In this document: in pieces, positions 10,466 through 64,000 of the stretch
Layout: every line of letters starts with the position of its first letter
How positions within the stretch are numbered: position 1 is the first letter of the stretch
Source: Amycolatopsis keratiniphila subsp. keratiniphila
GTDB taxonomy: Bacteria > Actinomycetota > Actinomycetes > Mycobacteriales > Pseudonocardiaceae
Assembly (NCBI RefSeq): GCF_001620365.2
Contig: NZ_LQMT02000008.1
Span: forward strand, 1 to 64,000
Direction of reading: 5' to 3'
Length of the DNA stretch: 64,000 nt
Program-made: the position numbers and the translations under genes
The notes under the pieces: generated by a model
The model's database searches: none
The model's input: the letters and a program-made list of their open reading frames with translations, nothing else
Told to the model about the DNA's origin: nothing

Positions 10466-10583
10466 GGTGCGGCATTCCTCCCGTCGGCCAGGGGCGGCCG
10501 CACCTTCGACGATACCCAAACGGTCCGGTTAGGACTGGCGGCGGCGTCCACAGGATGTAGACGGCATGTCAACACGATCGGCC

Positions 10584-10589
10584 TAGCTT
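10584..10589 (+). promoter_or_regulatory. -10 element of the cupin gene (leaderless)
   Basis: TAGCTT ends 7 nt before the ATG at 10597. A GTCAAC-like -35 lies about 17 bp upstream (10568-10575 region). No Shine-Dalgarno sequence is visible. Confidence 0.5.
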
Positions 10590-10596
10590 CGGTCGC

Positions 10597-11031
10597 ATGC
10601 ACCAGGCTTCCCGGCTCACCTTCGCTCTCGCGCTCACCGGCCTGGCCGTCGGCTTGGCTCCCGCGACCGCGAACGCCACCCCCGGACGCGGTGTCAGCGC
10701 CGTGACCCTCTTCGACCACGTGGTCGGCGGCACCCAGTACGTGCTGAAGGAGATCACGCTGGCGCCCGGTGGCAGCACCGGCTGGCATTTCCACCCCGGC
10801 GCGGTCAGCGGAGTGGTCGAACGCGGCGTCCTCAGCCACCACGACGCGACCTGCGCGAGCGATGGCGTCTACCACGCCGGGCAGGCGATCACCGAGGAGA
10901 GCGGACCCGGTTACGTCCACATCGGACGCAACCTCGGGACCGAGCCGGTCGTGCTCGAGGTGCTCTACCGGGTGCCCGCAGGTCAGGCGCTGGCCGTCGA
11001 CGTGCCCGATCCCGGCTGTTCGTTCGACTGA
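10597..11031 (+). CDS. Secreted cupin-domain protein
   Basis: A 144-residue protein with a signal peptide (TFALALTGLAVGLAPATANA) followed by one cupin barrel. The cupin motif 1 pattern is GGSTGWHFHPGAVSGVVERG and motif 2 falls in YHAGQAITEESGPGYVHIGR. The two His in WHFHPG and the later VHIGR His are likely metal ligands. It is exported, probably to the cell wall or medium. No enzyme activity can be assigned; cupins range from storage proteins to dioxygenases and isomerases. The tannase-type esterase gene starts 17 nt after its stop, so the two are probably cotranscribed, perhaps for breakdown of plant phenolics. Confidence 0.8.
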   Translation: MHQASRLTFALALTGLAVGLAPATANATPGRGVSAVTLFDHVVGGTQYVLKEITLAPGGSTGWHFHPGAVSGVVERGVLSHHDATCASDGVYHAGQAITEESGPGYVHIGRNLGTEPVVLEVLYRVPAGQALAVDVPDPGCSFD

Positions 11032-11048
11032 AATCCTGAAGGAAAGTG

Positions 11049-12620
11049 ATGAGACGCAAGAAGCTGTTCCTCGCGGCGGCACCGCTGGCCGCCCTGCTGC
11101 CGCTGGTGCTGACCTCGGTCACCCAGACGGCGCCCGCCCAAGCGGCGGCGACGTCGTGCGCGGCGGTCCCCGTTTCGGCGCCGGACGGGGCGCGGATCGA
11201 GTCCGTCCAGGCGGAGCACAAGCCCGGCGGCACCGTCACGTTCCCGCCCACCCCGTTCACGCCTCCCGCCACGATCACCGACGTGCCCGCGTACTGCGAG
11301 ATCACCGTCATCCTGACCCACGGCACGGCGGGTGATCACGTCAAGGTCGCCGTCACCCTGCCCCGGACCGGGTGGACCGGCAGGCTTCAGGCGATCGGCG
11401 GCAGCGCGTACACCGCCGGTGACTTCGGCGCCCCGCTCGTCCAGGCGGTCAAGGACGGTTTCAGTGGCGTGACCACCGACGCGGGCGTCCCCCTGACCTT
11501 CCTCGACACCTCCTGGGCGCTCACTCCCCGGGGCGAGATCAACCAGCCTCTCGTGACGAACTTCGCGACCCGGTCCGTACACGAGGCCGCGCTCGTCGGG
11601 AAGGACGTGACGCAGAAGTTCTACCAGCGGGAAGTCGCCTACTCGTACTGGAACGGCTGCTCGACCGGCGGTCGTCAGGGCTACTCCGAAGCGCAGCGGT
11701 ATCCGGGCGACTTCGACGGTGTCCTGGCGAACGCGCCCGCCGTGCACTGGGCGGAGTTCGCAGTCGCGACGCTCTGGCCGCGGGTCGTGATGAACCAGGA
11801 GAAGACCTTCCCGGCGACCTGCGTCTTCACCGCCTTCCAGCAGGCCGCGATCAAGGCCTGCGACGGCCGGGACGGCGTCACGAACGGCATCGTCGACCGG
11901 CCCGACGAGTGCGGTTACGATCCCCGGTCGCTCATCGGCACGAAGGTGCTCTGCGGCGACAAGGAGGTCACCGTCACCGCGGCGGACGCCGAGGTCGTGC
12001 GCAAGATCTGGGCCGGGCCGACCGACGAGCACGGACGACGGCTCTGGGCGGGCCTGCCCAAGGGAGCGGATTTCGGCCCGGTGACGACGGCTCCCGGCTT
12101 CCCGGTCGCGGTGGGCTGGGTGCGGACGTTCTTGAAGAAGCAGCCCGGATTCGACACCGAGAAGCTCACCTACCGCCAGTTCGCCGACCTGTTCCGCCAG
12201 TCGGTGCGGGAATACGACGACGTCATCGGGACCTCGGACCCGGATCTGTCGGACTTCCGGCGGGCTGGCGGCAAGCTGATCACCTTCGTCGGCACCGACG
12301 ACCAGCTGATCCCGCCGGGCGGAACGCTGCGGTACCGCCACGAGGTGGAGCGCGAACTGGGCGGCTCGAAACGGGTGAACGACTTCTACCGGCTGTTCCT
12401 CGCCCCCGGTGTCGCGCATTGCGGCGGCGGCGCGGGCGCCACGCCGACGAACGCGCTGGGCGCGCTCGTCGACTGGGTCGAACACGGTAAGGCACCGGCG
12501 ACCCTGCCCGCGGCGAACGGCGGCAAGACCCGCGATCTCTGCCCGTATCCGCAGGTTTCGCGGTACCGCGGCCACGGTGATCCCGCGGTGGCGTCGAGCT
12601 ACCGCTGCACCCTCCGCTGA
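11049..12620 (+). CDS. Secreted tannase/feruloyl esterase family hydrolase
   Basis: A 523-residue exported alpha/beta hydrolase of the tannase family (Pfam tannase; fungal FaeB relatives). A signal peptide (LFLAAAPLAALLPLVLTSVT) precedes the mature enzyme. The family's CS-D-HC signature is complete: NGCSTGGRQGY (Cys204-Ser205, nucleophile), the GTDDQLIPP Asp (417 or 418), and VAHCGGG (His457-Cys458); the two Cys are known to form a disulfide beside the active site. Such enzymes cleave galloyl, feruloyl or other phenolic esters of plant cell walls. ATG 11049 is preferred because AAGGA lies just upstream. A strong terminator follows at 12635-12674. Confidence 0.88.
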   Translation: MRRKKLFLAAAPLAALLPLVLTSVTQTAPAQAAATSCAAVPVSAPDGARIESVQAEHKPGGTVTFPPTPFTPPATITDVPAYCEITVILTHGTAGDHVKVAVTLPRTGWTGRLQAIGGSAYTAGDFGAPLVQAVKDGFSGVTTDAGVPLTFLDTSWALTPRGEINQPLVTNFATRSVHEAALVGKDVTQKFYQREVAYSYWNGCSTGGRQGYSEAQRYPGDFDGVLANAPAVHWAEFAVATLWPRVVMNQEKTFPATCVFTAFQQAAIKACDGRDGVTNGIVDRPDECGYDPRSLIGTKVLCGDKEVTVTAADAEVVRKIWAGPTDEHGRRLWAGLPKGADFGPVTTAPGFPVAVGWVRTFLKKQPGFDTEKLTYRQFADLFRQSVREYDDVIGTSDPDLSDFRRAGGKLITFVGTDDQLIPPGGTLRYRHEVERELGGSKRVNDFYRLFLAPGVAHCGGGAGATPTNALGALVDWVEHGKAPATLPAANGGKTRDLCPYPQVSRYRGHGDPAVASSYRCTLR

Positions 12621-12634
12621 GGTCCTCCAGACCC

Positions 12635-12674
12635 GTGCCCGTCGTGCCGGCGCCCCCTCCGGCACGACGGGCAC
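12635..12674 (+). terminator. Hairpin terminator after the tannase gene
   Basis: Arms 12635-12650 (GTGCCCGTCGTGCCGG) and 12659-12674 pair perfectly over 16 bp with an 8-nt loop, starting 15 nt after the stop codon. No U-tract follows, which is usual for high-GC actinobacteria. Confidence 0.85.
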
Positions 12675-47741: not shown

Positions 47742-48740
47742 GTGAATGACGCCCAGTTCCTCGTCCAGAGCGGAATCGGCCGGATCACGCTGAACCGGCC
47801 GCGTGCGCTGAACTCGCTGAACCACGGCATGGTCCTCGCCATGCTCGACCACCTCGAAGCGTGGCGCGCCGACCCGGGGGTCCGTGCCGTGCTGATCGAC
47901 GGCGCCGGCGATCGCGGGCTCTGCGCCGGCGGCGACATCCGCGCCATCTACGAGGACGCGCGCGCCGGCGGCACCGCGTCGTTGCGGTTCTGGGCCGACG
48001 AATACCGTCTCAACCTCCTGATCTCGCGTTACCCGAAGCCGTATCTCGCGCTCATGGACGGGCTTGTGATGGGCGGCGGGGTCGGCGTCTCCGCGCACGG
48101 CAGCCACCGGATCGTCACCGAACGCTCCCGTGTCGGCATGCCCGAGACGGGCATCGGTTTCGTCCCCGACGTCGGTGGCACGTATCTGTTGTCGCGGACA
48201 CCCGGCGAACTCGGGACGCATATCGCGCTCACCGCCGGGGCGATCTCCGGGCCCGACGCGATCCACTGTGGACTCGCCGATCACTTCGTGCCCAGCGAAC
48301 GGATCCCGGATCTGCTCGACGCGCTCACCTCGCGCCCCACGGACGAAGCGCTGGAACTGATCGCCGAACCCGCGCCGCCGAGCGCGCTGGCCGGGGACGC
48401 CGCCTGGATCGACCACTGCTACACGGCGGACACCGTCGAAGAGATCCTTTCCCGGCTCCACGCCGGCGGTGACGCCGCCGCGACCGCCGCCAAGGAGATC
48501 GAGGCGAAGTCGCCGACCGCACTGAAGGTGACCCTGCGGGCACTCCGGTCGGCGGCGGCGCTGCCCGACCTGGAAACCGTGCTGGCGCAGGAATACCGGA
48601 TCTCGGCCCACGCCCTCTCGACCGCCGAATTCGCCGAAGGCATCCGGGCGCAGATCATCGACAAGGACCGTGCTCCGAAGTGGTCGCCCGCCACGCTGTC
48701 CGAAGTGGACGAACGGATCGTCGACGCCTACTTCTCCTGA
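47742..48740 (+). CDS. 3-hydroxyisobutyryl-CoA hydrolase (crotonase fold)
   Basis: A 332-residue crotonase-family enzyme. GLCAGGDIRAIYEDA and LVMGGGVGVSAHGSHRIVTE form the oxyanion hole, and MPETGIGFVPDVGGTYLLSR holds the catalytic Glu and Asp diagnostic for HIBCH. The length and C-terminal extension are also those of HIBCH. It frees 3-hydroxyisobutyrate from its CoA ester in valine breakdown. The gene stands alone; its end overlaps the convergent SWIM gene by 13 nt. Confidence 0.88.
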   Translation: MNDAQFLVQSGIGRITLNRPRALNSLNHGMVLAMLDHLEAWRADPGVRAVLIDGAGDRGLCAGGDIRAIYEDARAGGTASLRFWADEYRLNLLISRYPKPYLALMDGLVMGGGVGVSAHGSHRIVTERSRVGMPETGIGFVPDVGGTYLLSRTPGELGTHIALTAGAISGPDAIHCGLADHFVPSERIPDLLDALTSRPTDEALELIAEPAPPSALAGDAAWIDHCYTADTVEEILSRLHAGGDAAATAAKEIEAKSPTALKVTLRALRSAAALPDLETVLAQEYRISAHALSTAEFAEGIRAQIIDKDRAPKWSPATLSEVDERIVDAYFS

Positions 48741-49432
48741 CCGGTGATCGCCCGGTAGAGCGGCCGCAGCAGGGCGGTGACCGAGGTTCCGTCCACTGTG
48801 GCCTTGAGCGGCGGGACCTCGTCGAGCAGTCCCAGCGGATCCCCGGCCGGCGGGCGACGCCGGTTCGTGACGTCGCCGGCCGGGCCCCAGCCGAAGAAGT
48901 CGTCCATCACCTCGTCGAGCTCCGGTGTCTCGTCCTCCGCCGCCGGGGCGGTCACGCGCGCACCCGCCTGACGTCCGATCTCTTCGAGCAGCGTCGCGCG
49001 ATCGCGCCCGCGAAGCGTGAAGATCGCGAACGGATCCGCGTCCGCCTTGAGGGCGATCAGGGCCGCGACGAGGTGATCGCACGGGACACGGGTGCCGGGA
49101 CACGTGCAGTCCAGCGACAGTTCCCACGCTGCCTCAGGGAACAGCGGCACCTGCTCGGCGGCGAAGAAGCGATCGATGTCGTCCGGGACCCGTCCGTCGA
49201 GCAGGGCGGTCCTCGTGGGCTCGTCCGCCACGACGGCGGCGACGACCGCCGTCCACACCTGCTTGCCGAACGCCGGCAGGCCGATACGGACCTCGTAGAA
49301 CCGTTGCCGGGTCACCCGGACCCTGGCGACGGCGGCCCCCGGCCCCAGCGTGAGCGTATCGACCGTGCAGGGCGGAACCAGTCCTTTGTGGACGTCCAGT
49401 TCGTCGAGCGCCCGGCGGAATCCCTCAGTCAT
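48728..49432 (-). CDS. SWIM zinc-finger protein
   Basis: A 234-residue protein with a SWIM zinc finger: LDCTCPGTRVPCDHLVAALI (CxC...CxH). SWIM domains bind Zn and DNA or protein. The N-terminal part is beta-rich (VARVRVTRQRFYEVRIGLPA) and the C-terminal part is acidic and flexible (EDETPELDEVMDDFF). Its start overlaps the end of the SNF2 helicase gene by 8 nt, so the two are coupled. SWIM/SNF2 gene pairs recur in actinobacteria and probably work as one complex in DNA handling. Confidence 0.85.
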   Translation of the reverse strand: MTEGFRRALDELDVHKGLVPPCTVDTLTLGPGAAVARVRVTRQRFYEVRIGLPAFGKQVWTAVVAAVVADEPTRTALLDGRVPDDIDRFFAAEQVPLFPEAAWELSLDCTCPGTRVPCDHLVAALIALKADADPFAIFTLRGRDRATLLEEIGRQAGARVTAPAAEDETPELDEVMDDFFGWGPAGDVTNRRRPPAGDPLGLLDEVPPLKATVDGTSVTALLRPLYRAITGQEK

Positions 49433-52421
49433 CGGCCGCCTCCCTGCCGAGTGTGAAGACCTCGCGCAGCGAATCGGTGGACAGCTCGGTGAGCCAGTCC
49501 TCCCCGTCGGTGACGACGAGATCGGCCAGCGCCTCCTTCTTGGTGATGACGTCGTCGATGCGTTCCTCGATGGTTCCGGGACAGACGAATTTCCGCACCT
49601 GGACGCTGCGGCGCTGGCCGATGCGGAACGCGCGGTCGGTGGCCTGTTCCTCCACCGCCGGATTCCACCATCGGTCGAGATGCAGGACGTGGGTGGCGGC
49701 GGTGAGGGTCAGCCCCGCTCCCCCGGTCTTCAGCGACGCGAGCAGGATCGACGGGCCCTCGCCCGACTGGAAGTGCTCGACGATCGAATCGCGGCGCCGC
49801 TGTGACAGCCCGCCGTGCAGGAAGGCGATCTTCACGTTCAGCCGGTGCGAGAGATGCGGCACGAGCAGGTGGCCGAACTCGGCGAACTGGGTGAAGCACA
49901 GCGCGCGGTCGCCGGAGTCCAGGATCTCCGCGAGGAGTTCCTCGAGCCGGTTGACCTTGCCGGAGCGGTGTCCGATCGGCGAACCGTCGTGCAGCAGATG
50001 CGCGGGATGGTTGCAGATCTGCTTGAGCTTGGTGATCGCGGCGAGGATGTTGCCACGCCGTTTGACCCCGGCGCTGTCGGCGATCTTCGTCATCATCTCG
50101 TCCACGGTCGCGCGGTAGAGCGTCACCTGTTCGCGGGTGAGGCGGTATTCCTGCAGGATTTCGATCTTCTCGGGCAGGTCCGCGAGCACGGTGGGGTCGG
50201 TTTTGAGGCGCCGCAACAGGAACGGCCGCGTCAGGCGGCGCAGCTCGGTGGCGGCGGCGAGGTCGCCCCGTCGCTCGATCGGCACCTCGAACCGCTCGCG
50301 GAACTCTTGCCTGCCACCGAGGACGCCGGGGTTGAGCAGATCCGAAAGCGACCACAGGTCGGCGAGCCGGTTCTCCACCGGTGTCCCGGTCAGCGCGACC
50401 CGGTGCCCGGCGGGGATGCGGCGCAGGGCCTGCGCGGGTCCGGTGTTCTGGTTCTTGACCGCCTGCGCCTCGTCGAGCACGAGCCGGTGCCAGCGGACGC
50501 CCGCGAGTTCGTCGGCGTCGCGGGCGGCGGTCGAGTAGGTGGTGACGACGAGATCCGCACCCTCGGTCGGCACGCGGCCGCGGTCGGCGCCGTGATGGAG
50601 GTGGACACGCAACTCCGGGGCGAATTTGGCTGTTTCCCGTTGCCACGTCCCGAGCAGCGACATCGGACAGACCAGCAATGTCGGCTGCCTGTCGTCCTGC
50701 GCTCTCTCCATCGCTTCGAGCGCGAGCAGCTGGACGGTCTTGCCCAGTCCCATGTCGTCGGCGAGGCAGGCCCCGAGCCCGATCGACGTCATGAACGAAA
50801 GCCAGGCGACACCGCGGCTCTGATAGGGCCGCAGCGTCGCGACGAAGGTCGGCGGTGGCTCGACCGGTTCGATGGCGCGCTGGACCCGGCCGGCGAGGAA
50901 GTCGTCGATCCAGCCGTCGGTGGTGACTTCGGTGACCGGCAGCGGTGTTTCGAAGCCGCCGCGGAGCAGCGCGAGCAGGTCCGCCGGCGTGGGCAGCGGC
51001 GGCTTCTCGCGGTCCGGATCGCGGCGGAGATACTCCAGGCCCGCGCGCAGCAGTTCGGGGTCCACGCTCACCCAGCGGCCGCGCAGCCGCACCAACGACG
51101 ACTTCGCGGCGGCGAGCCCGGCGAGTTCCTCGTCGGTCAGCGCGTCCTCCCCGACGGCGAGCGCCCAGCGGTAGGAGGCGAGCTGGTGCCGTCCCAGCCG
51201 GTGCACGGCGGCCTGGTCGACCGGTGCGCCGCGGACGGACAGCTTGAGCGCGAGCTTCCGCCTGCCGCCCCAGCTCGCCGGGAGCTGGACGTCGAATCCG
51301 GCCGCGACCAGCTGTTCCGCGCCGCCGTCGAGGAACTCCACGGCTTCGGCGACGGTGAGGTCGTAGGTGCCCGGCTTCTCGGCATCTACCGCGGGCCCGA
51401 GCAGCGGCAGTACCCCGGCTGCACGCTCCAGCTCGGCGGTGAAGAGACCTTCGGGATCGGTGAACTTCGCGCCCGCCTTGCCGGACCAGACGTCCTCGGC
51501 CGGGAGCAGGAGACTCGGGTCGGCGGTGGAGCGCAGGAGGAAACGCAGCTGCCACTTGGTGCCGTCTCCGGTCTGATCGTCGGGGTCGTCGGCCGGGCCG
51601 TGCAGCGTCGGAACCTCGTCGAGCCGGAGGCAGACCGTACCCTCGGTGAGGTCCGTGTCGCCGATCGCGTCCCAGGCGGCGATGCCCTCCGCGACGATCC
51701 CCATCCGCCCCGGCGACTGGCCGACCCGGTCGTCGGCACTCTTCAGCGCGTGGAGCCACGACCCGAACGGGCCTTCGCGACCGTCGCTTTCCGTGGCATG
51801 CCCCGCGGCACCCAGCCGATCGCGGACTGCGGCGTCGACCAGGGTGTGGAGGGCGTCGGTGACGAGCGCCACCGGATCCGGCCCGGGATGTTCGGCCCGG
51901 CCGACCGGTGGGGTGGCCGCGATCAACGCGCGGACCGCGACCGCGTCACCGCCCCGGGCCACCGGCCGCCAGCGCGCCCGCGCCACGATCTCGTTCCGCA
52001 CGAGCGTCGGCAGCACCCGGCCGCGGCGGACCAGGTCTTCCGCCAGCCGGACGACGGCGCGGAGATGGCGGACCGAAGTGCCGTAACTGACCGTCTCGGC
52101 CAGGTCTTCGAGCTCCGAGGGGTCGACCAGGAGGGCAGGCACCGACCAGGATTCCAGCGTCGGTTCCGGCTGCGGACGGCCACGGATACCCAGTTCGGGC
52201 GAGGCGATCGGGCCGCCGCGCCGCGACGGCAACAGCAGGACGGCGGTCGCCGGTTTGCCGGGATGCAGGGCGGTCAGATCCGCGACCGAGGCGGCGAACG
52301 GATGCGGCCGGGCCGCGCTCGACGGCCGCATCGACGTCGTCGCCGGGCGGTCGCCGTGTTCACCCCAGAGCACGATCCCGCGGCCACGGGACCACAAGCC
52401 GTGCACGACCAGTGGCGACAT
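49425..52421 (-). CDS. SNF2-family DEAD/DEAH helicase (HepA-like)
   Basis: A 998-residue SNF2 translocase. The N-terminal 450 residues belong to the bacterial SNF2_N-associated region; the motor begins near residue 530. Motif I is LADDMGLGKTVQLLALEA, motif II VLDEAQAVKNQ, motif III ALTGTPVENRLADLWSL, and motifs V-VI are SLKTGGAGLTLTAATHVLHL and ATDRAFRIGQRRSVQVRKFV. It uses ATP to move on double-stranded DNA; roles in repair or RNA polymerase recycling are known for relatives. Mycobacterial HelZ is a likely relative. The SWIM gene overlaps its end. GAGGGGG precedes the ATG. It is divergent from the YaaA-like gene. Confidence 0.9.
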   Translation of the reverse strand: MSPLVVHGLWSRGRGIVLWGEHGDRPATTSMRPSSAARPHPFAASVADLTALHPGKPATAVLLLPSRRGGPIASPELGIRGRPQPEPTLESWSVPALLVDPSELEDLAETVSYGTSVRHLRAVVRLAEDLVRRGRVLPTLVRNEIVARARWRPVARGGDAVAVRALIAATPPVGRAEHPGPDPVALVTDALHTLVDAAVRDRLGAAGHATESDGREGPFGSWLHALKSADDRVGQSPGRMGIVAEGIAAWDAIGDTDLTEGTVCLRLDEVPTLHGPADDPDDQTGDGTKWQLRFLLRSTADPSLLLPAEDVWSGKAGAKFTDPEGLFTAELERAAGVLPLLGPAVDAEKPGTYDLTVAEAVEFLDGGAEQLVAAGFDVQLPASWGGRRKLALKLSVRGAPVDQAAVHRLGRHQLASYRWALAVGEDALTDEELAGLAAAKSSLVRLRGRWVSVDPELLRAGLEYLRRDPDREKPPLPTPADLLALLRGGFETPLPVTEVTTDGWIDDFLAGRVQRAIEPVEPPPTFVATLRPYQSRGVAWLSFMTSIGLGACLADDMGLGKTVQLLALEAMERAQDDRQPTLLVCPMSLLGTWQRETAKFAPELRVHLHHGADRGRVPTEGADLVVTTYSTAARDADELAGVRWHRLVLDEAQAVKNQNTGPAQALRRIPAGHRVALTGTPVENRLADLWSLSDLLNPGVLGGRQEFRERFEVPIERRGDLAAATELRRLTRPFLLRRLKTDPTVLADLPEKIEILQEYRLTREQVTLYRATVDEMMTKIADSAGVKRRGNILAAITKLKQICNHPAHLLHDGSPIGHRSGKVNRLEELLAEILDSGDRALCFTQFAEFGHLLVPHLSHRLNVKIAFLHGGLSQRRRDSIVEHFQSGEGPSILLASLKTGGAGLTLTAATHVLHLDRWWNPAVEEQATDRAFRIGQRRSVQVRKFVCPGTIEERIDDVITKKEALADLVVTDGEDWLTELSTDSLREVFTLGREAADD

Positions 52422-56513: not shown

Positions 56514-56542
56514 GGCATACACTGTTCATGGCATACACAGTT
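56514..56542. promoter_or_regulatory. Direct repeats GGCATACAC(T/A)GTT between TetR and oxygenase genes
   Basis: Copies at 56514-56526 and 56530-56542 differ at one base and are 16 bp apart. ACTGT and ACAGT ends also give a small inverted repeat (56521-56541). They fit a TetR-type operator for both genes. Confidence 0.55.
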
Positions 56543-56566
56543 ACGTCACGAACTGGGGGATCGACC

Positions 56567-58024
56567 ATGACCGAACCGACCAGGCGGAACGTGCTCCGCG
56601 GCGCGGCCGCGCTCGCCATCGCCGGAACGGCCGCGAGCAGCGGATCCGCATTTGCCGCGCCGGCTCCGGCGAAACCGCGCTACCCGTTCCTCGAAGGCGC
56701 CTTCGCGCCCGTCACCGAAGAGGTGACCGCGTTCGGGCTACCGGTGACCGGCCGCATTCCGAGCGATCTGTGCGGGCGCTACCTGCGCACGGGGCCGAAC
56801 GTGCTCGGCCTCGAAGATCCGCGCGCGCACCACTGGATGCTGGGCGAGGGAATGGTGCACGGCGTCCGGCTGCGCGACGGGAAGGCCGAGTGGTACCGCA
56901 ACCGCTGGGTCCGTTCGTCCGGTGTCGCGGCGAAACTCGGCGAGCGGTACCCGTGGCCGGTGCCCGCCGAGGACTTCGCGCCGAACACGCACGTGATGGC
57001 CCATCACGGCCGCATCCTCGCCCTGCAGGAATCCGGCGCCCCGCCGTACGAACTCGACGGCGAGCTGAACACGTTGGGCCCGTTCGATTTCAGCGGTTCA
57101 CTGGAGGGCTCCTATACCGCGCACACCAAGTTCGACGCCCGCGCCGACGAGCTGCACGCGGTGACCTATCACCCGACCTGGGACCACGTGCGGCATCTGA
57201 TGGTCGACCGGACCGGCCGCGTGGTGCGGACCACCCGCATCCCGGTCACCGACAGCCCGATGATGCACGACTTCGGGCTCACGGAGAACTACGTGGTCGT
57301 CTTCGACGTACCGGTCACCTTCGATCCACAGCCGGGCAAGATCGTGCCCTACAAGTGGAACCCGGATCACCAGGCCCGGGTCGGGGTGATGAAACGCGAC
57401 GGCGGGCCGGTCCGCTGGTTCGGGGTGGATCCGGTGTTCTACTCGCACACCCTCAACGCCTACGAGCAGGGCTCCACGGTGGTGGTCGACCTGACCACGA
57501 TGCCCGCGCCCTTCGAGGTCTCCGGAAAGCAGGGCTTCGGTGGTCCGTCCGCGTCGGGACCGCCGGTGCTGGAGCGCTGGACGATCGACCTCGCGCAGGG
57601 ACGGGTCCGGCGCCGCGTCCTCGACGACCGGCCGCAGGAATTCCCGCGGGTCAACGAAAGCCTCGTCTCTCGACGGCACCGGTACGGCTACTCGGCCTCC
57701 CCCGGCGAACTGTTCGACGTCTACCTGGACAAGCCCTCCGGCTCCTTCGGCAACGCGTTGATCAAGCACGACCTGCGGACCGGACGCTCGGACGTGCACC
57801 GCTTCGGCCGGGGCGCCGACGCGAGCGAGGCGGTGTTCGTGCCGTCCTCCCGAGGCAAGGCCGAGGACGACGGCTACGCCCTCGCCTACGTCAACAACCC
57901 CGACCGCAACGCGTCGGACCTGGTGATCCTCGCGGCGCAGGACTTCACCGCGAAACCCTTGGCACGCATCCACCTGCCGAGGCCGGTACCGCTGGGCTTC
58001 CATGGCAGCTGGATCGCCGACTGA
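56567..58024 (+). CDS. Carotenoid cleavage oxygenase (RPE65-like), Tat signal
   Basis: A 485-residue non-haem iron enzyme. The four Fe-binding His are visible: TYHPTWD (His202), MMHDFG (His234), YSHTLN (His294) and GFHGSW (His479). These define the seven-bladed propeller of carotenoid and stilbene cleavage oxygenases. The start has TRRNVLRGAAALAIAGTAAS, a likely twin-arginine signal, so the folded iron enzyme would be exported, which is unusual for this family. It cleaves a conjugated double bond of a carotenoid, apocarotenoid or lignostilbene using O2. The divergent TetR gene likely regulates it. A terminator follows. Confidence 0.9.
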   Translation: MTEPTRRNVLRGAAALAIAGTAASSGSAFAAPAPAKPRYPFLEGAFAPVTEEVTAFGLPVTGRIPSDLCGRYLRTGPNVLGLEDPRAHHWMLGEGMVHGVRLRDGKAEWYRNRWVRSSGVAAKLGERYPWPVPAEDFAPNTHVMAHHGRILALQESGAPPYELDGELNTLGPFDFSGSLEGSYTAHTKFDARADELHAVTYHPTWDHVRHLMVDRTGRVVRTTRIPVTDSPMMHDFGLTENYVVVFDVPVTFDPQPGKIVPYKWNPDHQARVGVMKRDGGPVRWFGVDPVFYSHTLNAYEQGSTVVVDLTTMPAPFEVSGKQGFGGPSASGPPVLERWTIDLAQGRVRRRVLDDRPQEFPRVNESLVSRRHRYGYSASPGELFDVYLDKPSGSFGNALIKHDLRTGRSDVHRFGRGADASEAVFVPSSRGKAEDDGYALAYVNNPDRNASDLVILAAQDFTAKPLARIHLPRPVPLGFHGSWIAD

Positions 58025-58067: not shown

Positions 58068-60830
58068 TCACACTCCGGTGAGCACCTCCTCCAACGCGGC
58101 GGCGGAGTCCGGATACCGCTCGAGCAACGCCAAACCGGTGGGCGTGGTGCTCCCCCACGGCTCGTCGCACCCCAGCAGACCCGCCACCGCGTCACACACC
58201 GCCGGATGCGCCGCCAGCAGCGCGAGGCCGCCTTTGGCCTTCCTCGCCACCGCGACGGGTTCCGGCTGGTCGTGCCAAGGCGGAACCCATTCGTCGAGCG
58301 CCGCGAGACGGCCGGGGAAGATCCGGCCGGCTTCACGCACGAGCAAGGGCACCAGTTCGGCTCCCCGCGACCGCAGGGTGGTGATCAACGTCGGCAACCA
58401 CGGCAACAGCAACCTGTCCGGAAGCTCGGCGAAGGCGTTCGACACCGCCTCGACGACGAAGTCGGCCAGCCCCGGCGCCGGCTCCAGCGCGTGCACGAAC
58501 CCACTGAGGTAGCGCGGATAAGCGGGCAGCACCATCGGGTTCGTCAGCAGTCCGGCGCACCGTTCCCGCAGCTCCGCCCGGGAGAGACGGCCGAGCTGCA
58601 CCTGTGCCGCCCACAGCAACGCCACTTTCGACGGCTCCTGCGGATGCGATCCGACGATCGCCAGCTCCAGCTGGGTGCGGTCGCATCCCAGTGACAAAGC
58701 GAGCGACTCCATGCTGAACAGGAAGCCCAGCATCGCGGCGACCTGCTCGACACCGGCTTCGTCGTCGGCGAAGGCCGCCGGGAGCAGGGTGCAGTAGTGC
58801 GCGTACCCCGTCCTGACGAAGTCCTCGATCCATCGAGGCAGCACCGGCTCGCTGGTCCGGTAATGCGCCAGCAGCCTGCGCACCCGCCGCAGCACTTCCG
58901 GAGCGCCGTCGACGTTCCGTTCGGTGGCCAGCACCTCCAGGGCGCGCGTCCCCAACTCCCCCGCGAGCCGCGCGCTGCGAAGGTAAAGCGTCGCGTCTTC
59001 GACCGCTCCGAGCACCTTCGCGGCGGTGGCCTGCGGATGGTAGGCAGCGCGCCGAAGCCGTTGCTCCAGCACCTGCTCGACGCTGACCCCCTCGTAACCC
59101 AGCTCGATGAGGGCCCGCTGGTGGGTGCCCAGTGCCAGATCCCACGACTCCTGGATCGGCCGCTCGCCGAGCCGCCGCTCGCCCATGATCGGCCTCGCCG
59201 CACCGTGCGGCATCAGATAGCGCAACATCCACAGCAGATCGGAGCAGGGCTCCAGCTCCGGCCGCGACGCTATGTCGAGCAGCGCCCGCTGCACACCTCG
59301 TTGCTGCAGCTTGAGGTTCAGCGGCTCCAGCCTGTCGTGCACGTCGCGCGCCAAGGGTGGCAACGCGTCGTACCCGACCTGGCCGATCCGGTCGCCACCC
59401 ATCATGATCTCGACGAGGCGGCGTATGTCGCGCCTGCCGGGCACGACGTCCTTCTCGATGCAGGTGACCGCCGCGTCCTGGAAGTCGTACGGTGTCGGCT
59501 TGGCCCGGTCACGCATGCCCGCCAGCAGGATCGAGGTCTCGAAGACCGCGATGGCGTCGGCCGTCGAGGACAGGTACCCGTTCCGGCGCGCCGCCCGCAC
59601 GATCTCGACCGACCAGCCCAGCAACTCGGCCTCGTCCAGCCGGTCGAGTACCGGAGACCGTTGCAGGAAGCCGGAAAGCTGGTCCGATGGTTCCACTGCC
59701 ACCGGATCCGGCGTCGGCGCGGGCAGCGCCGCGGCCTTCTTCCGCTTCGGCCCGCCCACCTGTCCTTCCAGCTGGAACTGCTTCACCTTGGTGCGCTTGA
59801 GGTTCTTGGCCCACTCGGTCGCCGCGATCGACACCGATCCCCCGGCGAGCCCGAACTGCGCCTCGATCGAGGCGTGGCTCGACGGGATCAGCCCGTACTG
59901 CCAGGTGCTCTCACTGCGCGGGCTGATCACGAACCCGTCCGAACCTTCGACGCCGAACTCCGCGACCCGGCTTGCCGCGTGGAAGGCGCCGCAGACGTAG
60001 AGGCACTCCGCCGGGTCCGCCCCTGACGCCGCGAGGTGTTCGCGCATGCGGGTCCACATGTAGCGCTCGCGGTCTTCGTCCACCCGCACGTGCCGGGTGT
60101 CCCCCGGCGCGAGACGGCGGAACAGGCTGCCGATCAGGAACATGACCTGGCGATAGGTGTCGTGGTCGCTGTCACCGAGCGGCAGCTCGACGTACTGGTG
60201 CCACCACTCCGACCAGTGCCGCACCCGCCCGTGCCGCAGCAGGTGTTCCTCGAGTTCGGCGAACCGGGGCCGCAGATCGCCGATCTCGACGCCGACCGCG
60301 TCACCGTGCAGCGCCGCCTCCTCCTCGGCGGGCGGAGCGTCCGGATCAGTGGACGGTTCGCGTTCGTCCCATTGGAAGACGTGGTCCGCCGACCGGTCGA
60401 CCAGGACGAGCTCGACGCCCGGGGTGTCGAGGGCGTACGCGATCGCCTGGTACTCCGCCGAAGCCTCGGTGATCGGCGCGACCACGGACAAGGGCGCCCA
60501 CTCCGCGGGGAACCCCTTCACCTCCGTCGCGAACGCCTGCACCGCCACGGGAAGACGGCAGTTGCGCAGCTCGGTCAGCAACGGCGCCATGTCCTCGCAC
60601 AGTTCGAGGTAGACCACCTTCGGCTGCTTCTCCCGCAACCGCCGTGCCATCGCGACGGCCGAAGCCGGGGAATGGTGGCAGACCGGAAAGATCTCCAACG
60701 GCTCGCGCACCGCGCGGTCGACGTCGTCGACGAGCCCGAGCAGGATGCCCTCCAGCGCGCCGGGCCCGTCGGCGAAGGCGGCCGCGGCCTCCTGCAACTG
60801 GCCGCGCAACGCCTCTAAGGCGCCGCTCAC
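58068..60830 (-). CDS. DUF5682 family protein with N-terminal TraB/TIKI-like domain
   Basis: A 920-residue soluble protein. The first 330 residues carry FPVCHHSPASAVAMARRL (His52, His53), KVVYLELCED (Glu76) and YVCGAFHAASRV (His284). This layout is like the TraB/PrgY/TIKI and EreA/ChaN proteins, where such His and Glu form a metal or hydrolase site. That link is my inference. A basic segment (KNLKRTKVKQFQLE) and a large helical C-terminal part of about 500 residues follow. It is the last gene of a MoxR/VWA operon and starts in a 4-nt overlap with the MoxR gene. Homologous clusters recur in bacteria, but their role is unknown. Confidence 0.8.
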   Translation of the reverse strand: MSGALEALRGQLQEAAAAFADGPGALEGILLGLVDDVDRAVREPLEIFPVCHHSPASAVAMARRLREKQPKVVYLELCEDMAPLLTELRNCRLPVAVQAFATEVKGFPAEWAPLSVVAPITEASAEYQAIAYALDTPGVELVLVDRSADHVFQWDEREPSTDPDAPPAEEEAALHGDAVGVEIGDLRPRFAELEEHLLRHGRVRHWSEWWHQYVELPLGDSDHDTYRQVMFLIGSLFRRLAPGDTRHVRVDEDRERYMWTRMREHLAASGADPAECLYVCGAFHAASRVAEFGVEGSDGFVISPRSESTWQYGLIPSSHASIEAQFGLAGGSVSIAATEWAKNLKRTKVKQFQLEGQVGGPKRKKAAALPAPTPDPVAVEPSDQLSGFLQRSPVLDRLDEAELLGWSVEIVRAARRNGYLSSTADAIAVFETSILLAGMRDRAKPTPYDFQDAAVTCIEKDVVPGRRDIRRLVEIMMGGDRIGQVGYDALPPLARDVHDRLEPLNLKLQQRGVQRALLDIASRPELEPCSDLLWMLRYLMPHGAARPIMGERRLGERPIQESWDLALGTHQRALIELGYEGVSVEQVLEQRLRRAAYHPQATAAKVLGAVEDATLYLRSARLAGELGTRALEVLATERNVDGAPEVLRRVRRLLAHYRTSEPVLPRWIEDFVRTGYAHYCTLLPAAFADDEAGVEQVAAMLGFLFSMESLALSLGCDRTQLELAIVGSHPQEPSKVALLWAAQVQLGRLSRAELRERCAGLLTNPMVLPAYPRYLSGFVHALEPAPGLADFVVEAVSNAFAELPDRLLLPWLPTLITTLRSRGAELVPLLVREAGRIFPGRLAALDEWVPPWHDQPEPVAVARKAKGGLALLAAHPAVCDAVAGLLGCDEPWGSTTPTGLALLERYPDSAAALEEVLTGV

Positions 60831-61939
60831 GAGAGGGTGGCGATCGCGTCGCGGCCGCCGTCGAGGAACTCCGGCCAGTCCCCGCCCTCGTCCTTGCTGC
60901 GCGGCTCGACGACACCGTGCAGGTACTTGTTGAGGATCGCCAGATCCTCCGGCTCACGACGGGCGAGCGAGCCGACCAGCGACGACGCCAGGGTGCGGGC
61001 GGTCAGCGCGCGTTCCCCGAAGAAGTTGCTGTGCAACACCGCGTCTTCGAGCACGCCGATCTGTTCGGCCGTGGACAACGCGGACTCCAGCTTCTCGTCG
61101 TCGCTGCCGGCCGACGCCGCCGCTGCGCGAAGGTCGCCGAAGCTGCGCAAGAGCACATCGAGCAGCGTCGGCGGCACGTCCAGCTCGATCTGGTGACGGC
61201 GCAGGAGTTCCTCGGTGCGGAAGCGGACGATCTCCGCCTCGCTCTTCTTGTTCGTCACCACCGGGATGCGGACGAAGTTGAAGCGGCGTTTGAGCGCGGA
61301 CGACAGATCGTTGACCCCGCGGTCGCGGCTGTTGGCGGTGGCGATCACGGAGAAGCCGGGCTTGGCGAAGACGATGCCGTCGCTGTCCAGCTCCGGTACC
61401 GAGATGTACTTCTCCGACAGGATCGAGATCAGCGCGTCCTGGACGTCGCTGGTGGACCGGGTCAGCTCCTCGAACCGGCCGATCGAGCCCGCCTCCATCG
61501 CGGTCATGATCGGCGACGGGATCATCGACTCGCGGGACTGGCCCTTCGCGATGACCATCGAGACGTTCCACGAGTACTTGATGTGGTCCTCGGTGGTGCC
61601 GGCGGTCCCCTGCACGACGAGGGTCGAGTTGCGGGAGATCGCGGCGGCCAGCAGCTCGGCGAGCCAGCTTTTGCCGGTGCCCGGATCTCCGATCAGCAGG
61701 AGCCCGCGGTCCGAGGCGAGCGTGACGATGGCCCGTTCGACGATGCTCCGGTCGCCGAACCACTTCTGCGAAATCTCACGGTCGAGGCCGTCGGCGCGCT
61801 CGGACCCCAGGATGAACAGGCGCAGCATCTTCGGGGACAGGCGCCAGGCGAACGGCTTGGGATTGCCGTCGACCGACTCCAGCCAGTCCAGCTCTTCGGC
61901 GTACTTGATCTCGGCGGGGGCGCGCAACAGGTCGGACAT
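60827..61939 (-). CDS. MoxR-type AAA+ ATPase
   Basis: A 370-residue AAA+ ATPase. Walker A is LLIGDPGTGKSWLAELL (Lys90), sensor 1 is VIATANSRDRGVNDLS, and SSALKRRFNFVRIP carries the arginine finger. The long helix-2 insert and SILSEKYISVPELD fit the MoxR group, whose members act with VWA proteins as chaperones or metal/cofactor loaders. It lies between the VWA and DUF5682 genes, starting 19 nt after the first and overlapping the second by 4 nt. It resembles E. coli YehL in setting. Confidence 0.88.
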   Translation of the reverse strand: MSDLLRAPAEIKYAEELDWLESVDGNPKPFAWRLSPKMLRLFILGSERADGLDREISQKWFGDRSIVERAIVTLASDRGLLLIGDPGTGKSWLAELLAAAISRNSTLVVQGTAGTTEDHIKYSWNVSMVIAKGQSRESMIPSPIMTAMEAGSIGRFEELTRSTSDVQDALISILSEKYISVPELDSDGIVFAKPGFSVIATANSRDRGVNDLSSALKRRFNFVRIPVVTNKKSEAEIVRFRTEELLRRHQIELDVPPTLLDVLLRSFGDLRAAAASAGSDDEKLESALSTAEQIGVLEDAVLHSNFFGERALTARTLASSLVGSLARREPEDLAILNKYLHGVVEPRSKDEGGDWPEFLDGGRDAIATLS

Positions 61940-61958
61940 GTCTTGCCTTTCGGGGAGT

Positions 61959-63329
61959 TCAGGAGGTGAGGAAAGTTTTGAGTTCGTGGACGAGTTTGGT
62001 GATGTGACCGGAGATCACGGGCGTGCCGAGATCCTTGAAGCGCTCGCGGAACCAGGGATTGACGCTGCCCCGGCCGGCGCTGGTGACCGAACCGACCGGG
62101 ATGAACTTCGCCCCGGACCGGTGGATCGCGGCCATGCTCTCGAAGAGCTGCTCGACGCGGGTCTCGTAGAAGTCCGAGATCCACACCACCACGGTGTTCG
62201 CGGGCTCGGCGATCTTCGGCTGGGTCAGCCCCATCGCGACCATGCCGTCGTTGCCGCCGCCCAGGTTCGTGCGCAGCAGCGTTTCGAACGGGTCGTGGAC
62301 CCACGGGGTGAGGTCGAGCGCCTGCGTGTCGTAGGCGATCAGATGAACGTCCACTTTGGGCAGTCCGGCGAAGATCGAGGCCAGGACCGCGCAGTTGACC
62401 ATCGAGTCGACCATGGAACCGGACTGGTCGACGACCGCGATGAGCCGCTGTGGCGTGGTCTTCTTCGCGGTCTGCTTGTAGTACAGGCGATCGACGTAGA
62501 GCCGTTCCTCTTCCGGGCTCCAGTTGGTGAGGTTCTTCCAAATGGTGCGATCGAGGTCGAGGTTGCGGAACACGCGCTTCGGCGGGACCGAACGATCCAC
62601 CTTGCCCGTCGAGGCCTTCTCGACCTGGGTCCGCAGGACCTCCGCGATCTCGTCGACGTAGCGCCGGATGAGCGACTTGGCGTTGGCCAACGCCACTCCG
62701 GACAGGTTGTCCTTGTCCCGCAACAACTGTTCGATGAGGGACATACTCGGGCTCAGCTTCGCCGCGAGCGCGGGATCGGCGAGGACCTCGCGCAGATGCA
62801 TCCGCTTCACGAGGTCCGCCTCGATGTCGCCGAGGTCCGGGCCGATGGCCGGGAGGAGGGTGCTCAGATCGGGTGTGCCGCCCCCGCCGGTGCCGCCGAG
62901 CCCGGTCGGAGCGCCTCCGGAACGACCACCGCGCAACTCACCAGGGCGGCAGCCGAGCGCGCGCTCCAGCCAGCCCGCGTCGGACTGCCAGCAGGACAGC
63001 CGCCCGGCGGTCACCGTGTGCGGCGGCTGAGCGAAGACGTTGAGCAGCACCTTCGATACGAGCGCCGCGCGCCGCACTTCCGCCGCCTTGTCCCGGCCGT
63101 CCCCGGCTTCGGGGACCATCAGCCCGTCGAACTCTGCGGCCAGCTCCGGATGACGCTGGACGACCGAGTCGACCGCGACGTTCGGATCCAGCAGCGCCGA
63201 CGGCAAGCCGATGTCCTCGACCACGGCCACACTCGCGGACTCGAGCGCGGCCTGCTCCTCGGTGTCGAAGAGCCGGGCGAGCAGCCGCCAGTACAGGACC
63301 TGGCGGCGGTTGTCCTCGGGTTCGGTCAT
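61959..63329 (-). CDS. VWA-domain protein (MoxR partner)
   Basis: A 456-residue cytoplasmic protein with a C-terminal von Willebrand factor A domain. The MIDAS is VVDQSGSMVDS (Asp301, Ser303, Ser305), completed by TNLGGGNDGMVA and WISDFYETR. The N-terminal half is helical, with a Gly-rich linker (RGGRSGGAPTGLGGTGGGG). VWA proteins of this type bind targets through a metal ion and recruit the MoxR ATPase. The ATG overlaps the upstream stop (ATGA). It resembles E. coli YehP in setting. Confidence 0.87.
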   Translation of the reverse strand: MTEPEDNRRQVLYWRLLARLFDTEEQAALESASVAVVEDIGLPSALLDPNVAVDSVVQRHPELAAEFDGLMVPEAGDGRDKAAEVRRAALVSKVLLNVFAQPPHTVTAGRLSCWQSDAGWLERALGCRPGELRGGRSGGAPTGLGGTGGGGTPDLSTLLPAIGPDLGDIEADLVKRMHLREVLADPALAAKLSPSMSLIEQLLRDKDNLSGVALANAKSLIRRYVDEIAEVLRTQVEKASTGKVDRSVPPKRVFRNLDLDRTIWKNLTNWSPEEERLYVDRLYYKQTAKKTTPQRLIAVVDQSGSMVDSMVNCAVLASIFAGLPKVDVHLIAYDTQALDLTPWVHDPFETLLRTNLGGGNDGMVAMGLTQPKIAEPANTVVVWISDFYETRVEQLFESMAAIHRSGAKFIPVGSVTSAGRGSVNPWFRERFKDLGTPVISGHITKLVHELKTFLTS

Positions 63330-64000
63330 TTCCGCAGCAACCTTCCGGCACGCTCGCGCAGCACGGCCGCGGCGTCGGTGGCCGCCTTCTCGGCTTTCAC
63401 TCCGACCTTGTCCGTGGTGCCGCCGGCCCAGGCTCCGGCGTGCACGGCGGTGGTCTTCTTCCGCACGGTGGTCTCGACGGCGAGCGGCTGGAGGCGGAAT
63501 CCACCGTCCCACCGGATCAGGCCGATGCACGCGCTGGAACTCGCGACGGCCTTCGGCGTCAGCGGACCGGCCGCCGGGATGCGGTCCGTCTCGACGAAGA
63601 GCCGATTCCCGGCGAAGGTGAACGTGACCTCGTCTTCGCCACCCTCGATGTCGTAACCCTCGAGGAAGACGGGAACGGCGATCCGCACCGGGTGCCGGTC
63701 CAGCGGTGCGACCGCCGGGATGACGGCCTTCGGCAGGGCTACGCGTGCCGTGGAGAAAGCGTCCGCAGGTTCGCCGAGGCGGGCGTGCTCGTCCCGCCAG
63801 AGCAAGTCGCCCTCGGCGGTGACCGGCATGCCGGCGAGGTCCATGGAGCGGCCCTCGCTGATCGCCTTGAGCAGGGAAAGATGCGGGCGCAGCAACTGCC
63901 AGATCCCGGCGCCGATGATCGTGTCCGGCTTGGGCACGGTCGCGTTCGCACGCACGAGACGGGGCGCTGTGCCGTCCTCGGGTTCGAACACGGCGTGGAC
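63326..64000 (-). CDS. C-terminal part of the first gene in the MoxR/VWA operon (cut by right edge)
   Basis: The visible 224 residues are soluble and open at the right edge. Segments include GAGIWQLLRPHLSLLKAISE, EGDLLWRDEHARLGEPAD and SSSACIGLIRWDGGFRLQPL, ending in a basic, Ala-rich tail. The frame continues off the window, so the GTG at 63991 is probably internal. In related clusters, such as E. coli yehLMPQ, a SWIM zinc-finger protein or a similar long protein is present; this may be it, but no Cys motif is visible in this part. It overlaps the VWA gene by 4 nt. Confidence 0.7.
   Translation of the reverse strand, partial: VHAVFEPEDGTAPRLVRANATVPKPDTIIGAGIWQLLRPHLSLLKAISEGRSMDLAGMPVTAEGDLLWRDEHARLGEPADAFSTARVALPKAVIPAVAPLDRHPVRIAVPVFLEGYDIEGGEDEVTFTFAGNRLFVETDRIPAAGPLTPKAVASSSACIGLIRWDGGFRLQPLAVETTVRKKTTAVHAGAWAGGTTDKVGVKAEKAATDAAAVLRERAGRLLRK

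Follow-up and report, generated by a model that had tools for sequence, protein, structure and literature searches.

In the actinomycete Amycolatopsis keratiniphila subsp. keratiniphila, a five-gene operon encodes a MoxR AAA+ ATPase and a VWA protein together with a DUF5682 protein, the N-terminal domain of which is very likely related to the TraB family. Four of the five genes lie wholly or partly in the 64,000-nucleotide stretch analysed here (positions 1 to 64,000 of contig NZ_LQMT02000008.1, from a 9.09-Mb genome; hereafter the window). We tentatively interpret the operon as specifying a remodelling complex, formed by MoxR and VWA and driven by ATP, that is devoted to a TraB-fold (TIKI superfamily) protein, a reading to which we give slightly under an even chance. 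Open reading frame analysis of positions 58068-64000 recovered four frames, all on the minus strand (lengths in amino acids, aa):

58068..60830, minus strand: DUF5682-like protein, 920 aa, GTG start, with a likely TraB-fold N-terminal domain and a helical C-terminal region
60827..61939, minus strand: MoxR AAA+ ATPase, YehL-like, 370 aa (Pfam AAA_5, E 1.9e-36)
61959..63329, minus strand: VWA (CoxE-like) protein, YehP-like, 456 aa (Pfam VWA_CoxE, E 5.6e-27)
63326..64000, minus strand: C-terminal part of a 467-aa protein to which Pfam assigns no family, open at the window edge

The whole 467-aa gene occupies contig positions 63326-64729, with its start beyond the window, and overlaps a fifth gene outside the window (contig 64699-65256) for a cysteine-rich 185-aa protein with a Cys/His motif. 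The operon begins with this 185-aa gene, followed by the 467-aa, VWA, MoxR and DUF5682 genes. An earlier interpretation of the window, made from its letters and frames (the sequence-only reading), had described four tightly overlapped genes. At two of the in-window junctions adjacent frames share 4 bases and at the third they lie 19 bases apart; the fifth gene is an addition to that description. The MoxR/VWA/DUF5682 block that it proposed is real, as judged from the frames, the Pfam matches, the DUF5682 family match (PF18934) given below and its retention elsewhere.

Among the bacterial and archaeal genomes scanned, the DUF5682 protein has 534 relatives, the best 80 of which were kept as type A loci. 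The 467-aa, VWA, MoxR and DUF5682 genes hold the same order and strand in 80 of these 80 loci, joined in 79 by the 185-aa gene, and the block is therefore not a product of chance. All kept loci are from actinomycetes, e.g. Amycolatopsis, Crossiella, Lentzea, Saccharopolyspora and Streptomyces, and median identity to the window across them is 75% for the 185-aa protein, 72% for the 467-aa protein, 82% for VWA, 93% for MoxR and 81% for DUF5682. Since no flanking gene is common to more than four of 40 type A loci, we regard the five genes as the unit. Because the Streptomyces proteins are closer to the window (77-84% identity) than those of two genomes of the same order (69-71%), we infer, from identities rather than from a tree, that the type A operon has spread horizontally. 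In locus L165 (G095, positions 8791-12660) the type A MoxR and DUF5682 genes are each split into two frames, through decay or sequencing error.

The core trio extends beyond type A. MoxR, DUF5682 and VWA are encoded together in 12 of 12 records from plasmid and phage collections, comprising Actinomycetota, Pseudomonadota, Bacteroidota, Deinococcota, Fusobacteriota and one unverified phage record, where the extra partners differ (SWIM and DUF5691, SWIM and DUF4132, or others). Furthermore, DUF5682 and VWA occupy one reading frame of 1243-1645 codons in G254 (L153, the same place as L137), G273 (L141), G049 (L158) and a Streptomyces plasmid (L177). The screen for such fusions covered nine loci of the long type; L138, L139, L140, L154 and L155 were missed by its search pattern and are counted neither way. 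The joint presence of the trio in the type A loci, in these records of five phyla and in E. coli (see below), together with the fusions, supports a coupling of the three proteins, and the co-occurrence that the sequence-only reading had proposed to map is thereby substantiated.

Membership of the family was clear for the window protein in a whole-genome profile search (PF18934, E 1.8e-28, 99.9 bits, cut-off 26), and the family was missed in three runs of plain hmmscan; standard annotation can overlook divergent members. Profile-profile alignment (hhalign) of the window-type N-domain with canonical DUF5682 gave E 2.8e-20. Of 80 Amycolatopsis genomes, 72 contain PF18934: the canonical type B accounts for 51 and type A for 21 (one partial), and six of the type B genomes hold seven further PF18934 places. 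The two types never occur together in these 80 genomes (Fisher p 4e-13, relatedness uncontrolled), yet both are present in G126, G254 and G314 outside the genus, and we make no claim of mutual replacement. Type B operons (from Amycolatopsis, Deinococcus, Rhizobium and Hymenobacter) share the MoxR, DUF5682 and VWA core with type A, but carry DUF5691 and SWIM partners where type A has the 467-aa and 185-aa proteins; among five type B loci compared, no flank was common to both types.

The assignment of the DUF5682 N-terminus to the TraB group draws on conserved motifs, a predicted structure and profile comparison. The relevant features are:

59820..60728, minus strand: N-terminal TraB/TIKI-like domain, residues 35-337, from an AlphaFold2 (AF2) model with Foldseek and VIA matches
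60672..60677, minus strand: motif 1 histidines H52 and H53 (PVCHHSP), invariant in 25 of 25 diverse DUF5682 members and 81 of 81 type A sequences
60603..60605, minus strand: motif 2 glutamate E76 (YLELCED), invariant in 25 of 25
60069..60071, minus strand: basic residue R254 of an RExxM-like motif, invariant in 25 of 25, aligned with the Arg-Asp...Met stretch of PrgY
59979..59981, minus strand: motif 3 histidine H284 (CGAFHA, GxxH), invariant in 25 of 25
58401..59063, minus strand: stretch of the C-terminal helical repeats predicted with confidence in the full-length AF2 model, roughly residues 590-810

The 25 diverse members agree without exception in both His of HH[SG]P, a Glu about 23 residues later, an Asp, the Arg and Glu of RE...M and, in GxxH, the Gly and His. 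The CHHSP, ELCED and GAFHA pattern, which the sequence-only reading had likened to TraB/TIKI/EreA domains, is conserved among type A sequences in 81 of 81, 80 of 81 and 81 of 81, respectively. The modelled N-domain has its three best PDB matches in copies of the same chain of a Tetrahymena respiratory complex (Foldseek E 5.8e-3 to 6.0e-2, VIA Z 9.3-10.1). The chain is deposited as 'TraB family protein', and a subunit of the TraB family is mentioned in a paper on the complex (PMC10060162). The next VIA matches among those listed are two entries of the erythromycin esterase EreC (Z 6.3 and 6.2, EreC holding rank 4), followed by an unrelated chain at 5.1. The EreC match is collinear (Z 6.3 over 135 residues), but stays below Z 8 and has no significant profile match beside it (E 0.015). 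A viral structure library likewise gave a TraB family protein as the best match, though weakly (E 0.14). The C-terminal part is an all-helical repeat with generic structural matches only.

Comparison of profiles points the same way. DUF5682 without type A aligned with a PrgY-type TraB profile over 209 columns (E 8.6e-6, probability 83%), the two GxxH motifs, the Glu, the Asp and the Arg...Met stretch all falling in register. Shuffling the columns 200 times gave no score above 20.6, against 46.0 for the real alignment. A first shuffle control had given three anomalous scores near 131-133 among 200; on repetition without gap-rich columns, none of 600 exceeded 20.8. With small alignments, DUF5682 had no significant match to EreA, which is uninformative because TraB and EreA, an accepted pair, also went undetected (E 0.055). 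A sequence search with the N-domain gave nothing beyond chance matches in the PDB, the window protein has no direct Pfam hit to TraB (PF01963), and searches for ChaN and TraB in related genomes found nothing to align. The TraB/PrgY/GumN family (PF01963) shares the predicted fold and the motif order GxxH-E-R-GxxH with DUF5682, which differs in its doubled His, its large helical C-terminal region and its fixed MoxR/VWA partners. The features of the TIKI/TraB superfamily, an alpha/beta core fold and the order His, Glu, basic residue, His, thus appear to be present in the model and in the sequence, respectively. TraB-fold kinship is, in our estimate, very likely, with the TraB family protein as the leading structural match, EreC after it and the PrgY profile in agreement, as the sequence-only reading had anticipated. 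Neither of the two results by which that reading would have fallen, a missing fold match or a missing co-occurrence of the genes, was thus obtained.

Several points nevertheless weigh against our interpretation of the operon. Confidence in the model is modest: the isolated N-domain reached a mean predicted local distance difference test (pLDDT) score of 63 and a predicted template modelling (pTM) score of 0.66, with the other four models at 37-48, such that just one of five exceeds a mean of 50, and the N-domain is poor in the full-length model. All Foldseek matches are weaker than E 0.001. Type A by itself reaches just E 0.018 against PrgY, and the link passes through canonical DUF5682. The acid two residues before the first His is absent in DUF5682, as it is in YbaP (TraB), leaving an incomplete 2His/2Glu set; the TIKI enzyme RRSP requires two His, two Glu and a basic residue (PMC6254334), and as the set is incomplete we do not class the window protein with the Ere- or RRSP-type enzymes. 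The Gly of the first GxxH, found in most canonical members, is Pro in the window, in other type A sequences and in some canonical ones; in our judgement this Gly is a usual position rather than a defining one for the superfamily. Lastly, the closest solved match is a respiratory-complex subunit, and members of the TraB family need not be enzymes.

That match and the missing Glu would suit a TraB-fold domain that is no enzyme at all, rather a metal-, haem- or protein-binding module, with the operon serving as a stress or respiratory assembly factor. We consider this improbable, as five phyla show no change at either His, the Glu or the Arg, which is more constancy than a scaffold should require. 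H52/H53, E76, R254 and H284 are the candidate active-site residues.

The two putative partners were likewise inspected at their motifs:

61667..61690, minus strand: MoxR Walker A, GDPGTGKS, in 81 of 81 type A sequences
61457..61480, minus strand: MoxR Walker B region, GRFEELTR, with Glu-Glu replacing the usual Asp-Glu, in 80 of 81 type A sequences
62412..62435, minus strand: DxSxS segment of the VWA metal ion-dependent adhesion site (MIDAS), VVDQSGSM, in 80 of 81, the remaining one having Ile for the second Val
62244..62264, minus strand: third MIDAS position, LGGGNDG; the customary Thr is found in 56 of 81 sequences and Asn in the other 25, the window included

The SALKRRF arginine motif of MoxR is also found in 81 of 81 type A sequences, and the Glu-Glu recurs in the Walker B region of YehL (VRFEEITR). 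From the AAA_5 domain and 42% identity to YehL over 340 aa, the ATPase appears to belong with the YehL subfamily, the sole MoxR subfamily compared. The MIDAS of the window VWA protein reads DxSxS...N...D, where DxSxS and the last Asp are each present in 81 of 81 type A sequences; the intact site (DxSxS-T-D) ascribed to it by the sequence-only reading does not hold, as Asn takes the place of Thr. In NorD, the Thr and the last Asp are needed for function, not for NorQ binding (PMC9976466).

NorQ/NorD and RavA/ViaA combine a MoxR ring with a VWA partner, as does the type A operon (PMC9976466, PMC3893208), and in the NorQ/NorD model the VWA adaptor sits in the ring pore (PMC9976466). The MoxR/VWA pairs with an established role serve in metalloprotein maturation (PMC9976466, PMC3893208), raising the prospect that DUF5682 is a client whose TraB-fold site receives a metal or cofactor from MoxR and VWA, in the way that NorQ/NorD act on nitric oxide reductase, the finished DUF5682 protein then acting alone. 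One dedicated MoxR/VWA pair adjoining one constant third protein would fit such maturation. The DUF5682-VWA fusions, however, suggest a lasting partnership and not a passing client relation, and we regard maturation as a minority prospect, with a chance of roughly a quarter. Both known pairs are of another MoxR subfamily than that of the window. To our knowledge, neither of their operons encodes a TraB-fold protein.

A further parallel is found in E. coli, which carries the core trio as yehL-yehM-yehP. The VWA protein is 33% identical to YehP over 308 aa, and YehM is itself a DUF5682 protein (E 2.4e-98), of 759 aa compared with 920 aa in the window. The gene order of the yeh operon is unlike type A, and YehQ, with its Pfam SWIM matches, is related to neither the 185-aa nor the 467-aa protein as far as detectable. 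The yehLMPQ group is hence a partial parallel, as had been suggested from the sequence, with counterparts of YehL, YehM and YehP and none detectable of YehQ. Comparison of the 185-aa and 467-aa proteins with YehQ and the SWIM proteins of other DUF5682 operons gave no hhalign support (probability 0.2-0.8%), and the idea of the two genes as a split YehQ was dropped on that ground.

As for these two proteins, the sequence-only reading had looked to the remainder of the 467-aa gene for SWIM or effector domains; the complete protein has no Pfam match above cut-off, to either of these or to any other family. The 185-aa protein matches no Pfam family at E 1 and displays a conserved C-x7-C-x7-C-x-H pattern, the spacing of which is unlike the SWIM CxCx(n)CxH. 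Other lineages carry different genes at these positions, and the two are therefore probably client- or site-specific accessories.

We also considered a conflict system, anti-phage or otherwise, in which the TraB-fold domain would be the effector, akin to the MoxR-vWA ternary systems, which likewise join MoxR and VWA with a third component (PMC7159879). In those systems the third component is VMAP, an inactive STAND, FtsH or a beta-propeller, and the available part of the text on them mentions none of SWIM, TraB, Tiki, DUF5682 or Yeh (PMC7159879). Any DUF5682 was present in 21 of 246 genomes in a spread sample of the phylum, and this patchy occurrence is congruent with conflict, as are the probable horizontal spread and single plasmid copies of DUF5682 operons that adjoin a DNA methylase or restriction system. 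Linkage to defence islands, as surmised from the sequence, was however not detected. Gene calling around 42 type A loci gave 229 flanking genes; a subset of 76, taken from 21 of the loci, went through PADLOC at E 1e-15, next to a control of 76 of the 80 genes from 20 arbitrary stretches; the flanks matched 12 families and the control 13, each in one protein, hence no excess in a small sample with crude gene calling. At E 0.1 no PADLOC family was found for the DUF5682 or the 467-aa protein, VWA matched weakly, and the bpMoxR profile of the MoxR-vWA-beta-propeller ternary systems scored 17.2 bits, under its cut-off of 27. Flanks are not conserved, and the components are, highly so (most of all MoxR), without the turnover expected of an effector. 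A conflict role is thus, in our view, rather improbable. No relatives were found in viral contigs, and no type A in the phage collection. The record MT835988.1 (L175), an unverified 'Bacteriophage sp.' fecal contig with the MoxR, DUF5682 and VWA trio from 274 to about 4800, may be bacterial DNA.

The operon is bordered by a gene for an RPE65-like dioxygenase on one side and a HAD hydrolase on the other. The former (window 56528-58024) encodes a homologue of RPE65-type carotenoid-cleavage dioxygenases with a weak match to a twin-arginine translocation (TAT) signal. G012 was evaluated as a clean empty site and rejected: the HAD gene and the next outward gene are kept with no operon alongside, and the RPE65-like gene was not found. 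Elsewhere in the window (48728-52421, minus strand), an SNF2 helicase (DUF3670) followed by a SWIM protein forms a separate helicase-SWIM pair; the top NCBIfam match of the helicase is the SCO1167/SCO6262 family helicase, at 723.6 bits and under the cut-off of 1200.

Returning to the remodelling complex that we favour, the MoxR ring would use the VWA protein as an adaptor, by analogy with NorQ/NorD, and would act on or with the DUF5682 protein, either by opening and delivering a client or by loading or exposing the DUF5682 active site. The putative H52/H53-E76-R254-H284 centre would then hydrolyse an amide or ester bond of the client, with the 185-aa and 467-aa proteins conferring specificity. 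A bolder formulation, which we hold to be possible and on balance doubtful, is that DUF5682, MoxR and VWA constitute an ATP-powered hydrolytic machine of an undescribed kind, in which an AAA+ ring would use a VWA adaptor to feed or gate a peptidase or esterase of TraB/TIKI fold, in at least five phyla and including YehL-YehM-YehP of E. coli K-12.

The term 'undescribed', used of the system by the sequence-only reading, fits the open-access literature, less so the public records, where the components are annotated and the E. coli operon is named. DUF5682 and DUF5691 are absent from the open-access papers (subscription papers and preprints lying outside the search), SWIM zinc finger and MoxR appear together in none of those searched, and TraB family and MoxR do so in an unrelated context only. 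No paper on the function of the YehL subfamily or yehLMPQ was found in the same literature, where two genome papers contain two or more of the yehLMPQ names and four papers mention YehL along with MoxR; in one of the four, YehL is just named as a MoxR subfamily (PMC3893208). For this subfamily, the fold prediction, the candidate active-site residues and the VWA fusions make an unexplained operon of E. coli K-12 testable by mutants. If the TraB-fold domain is active, the operon would bring together an AAA+ ring and a hydrolase fold in a combination that is new.

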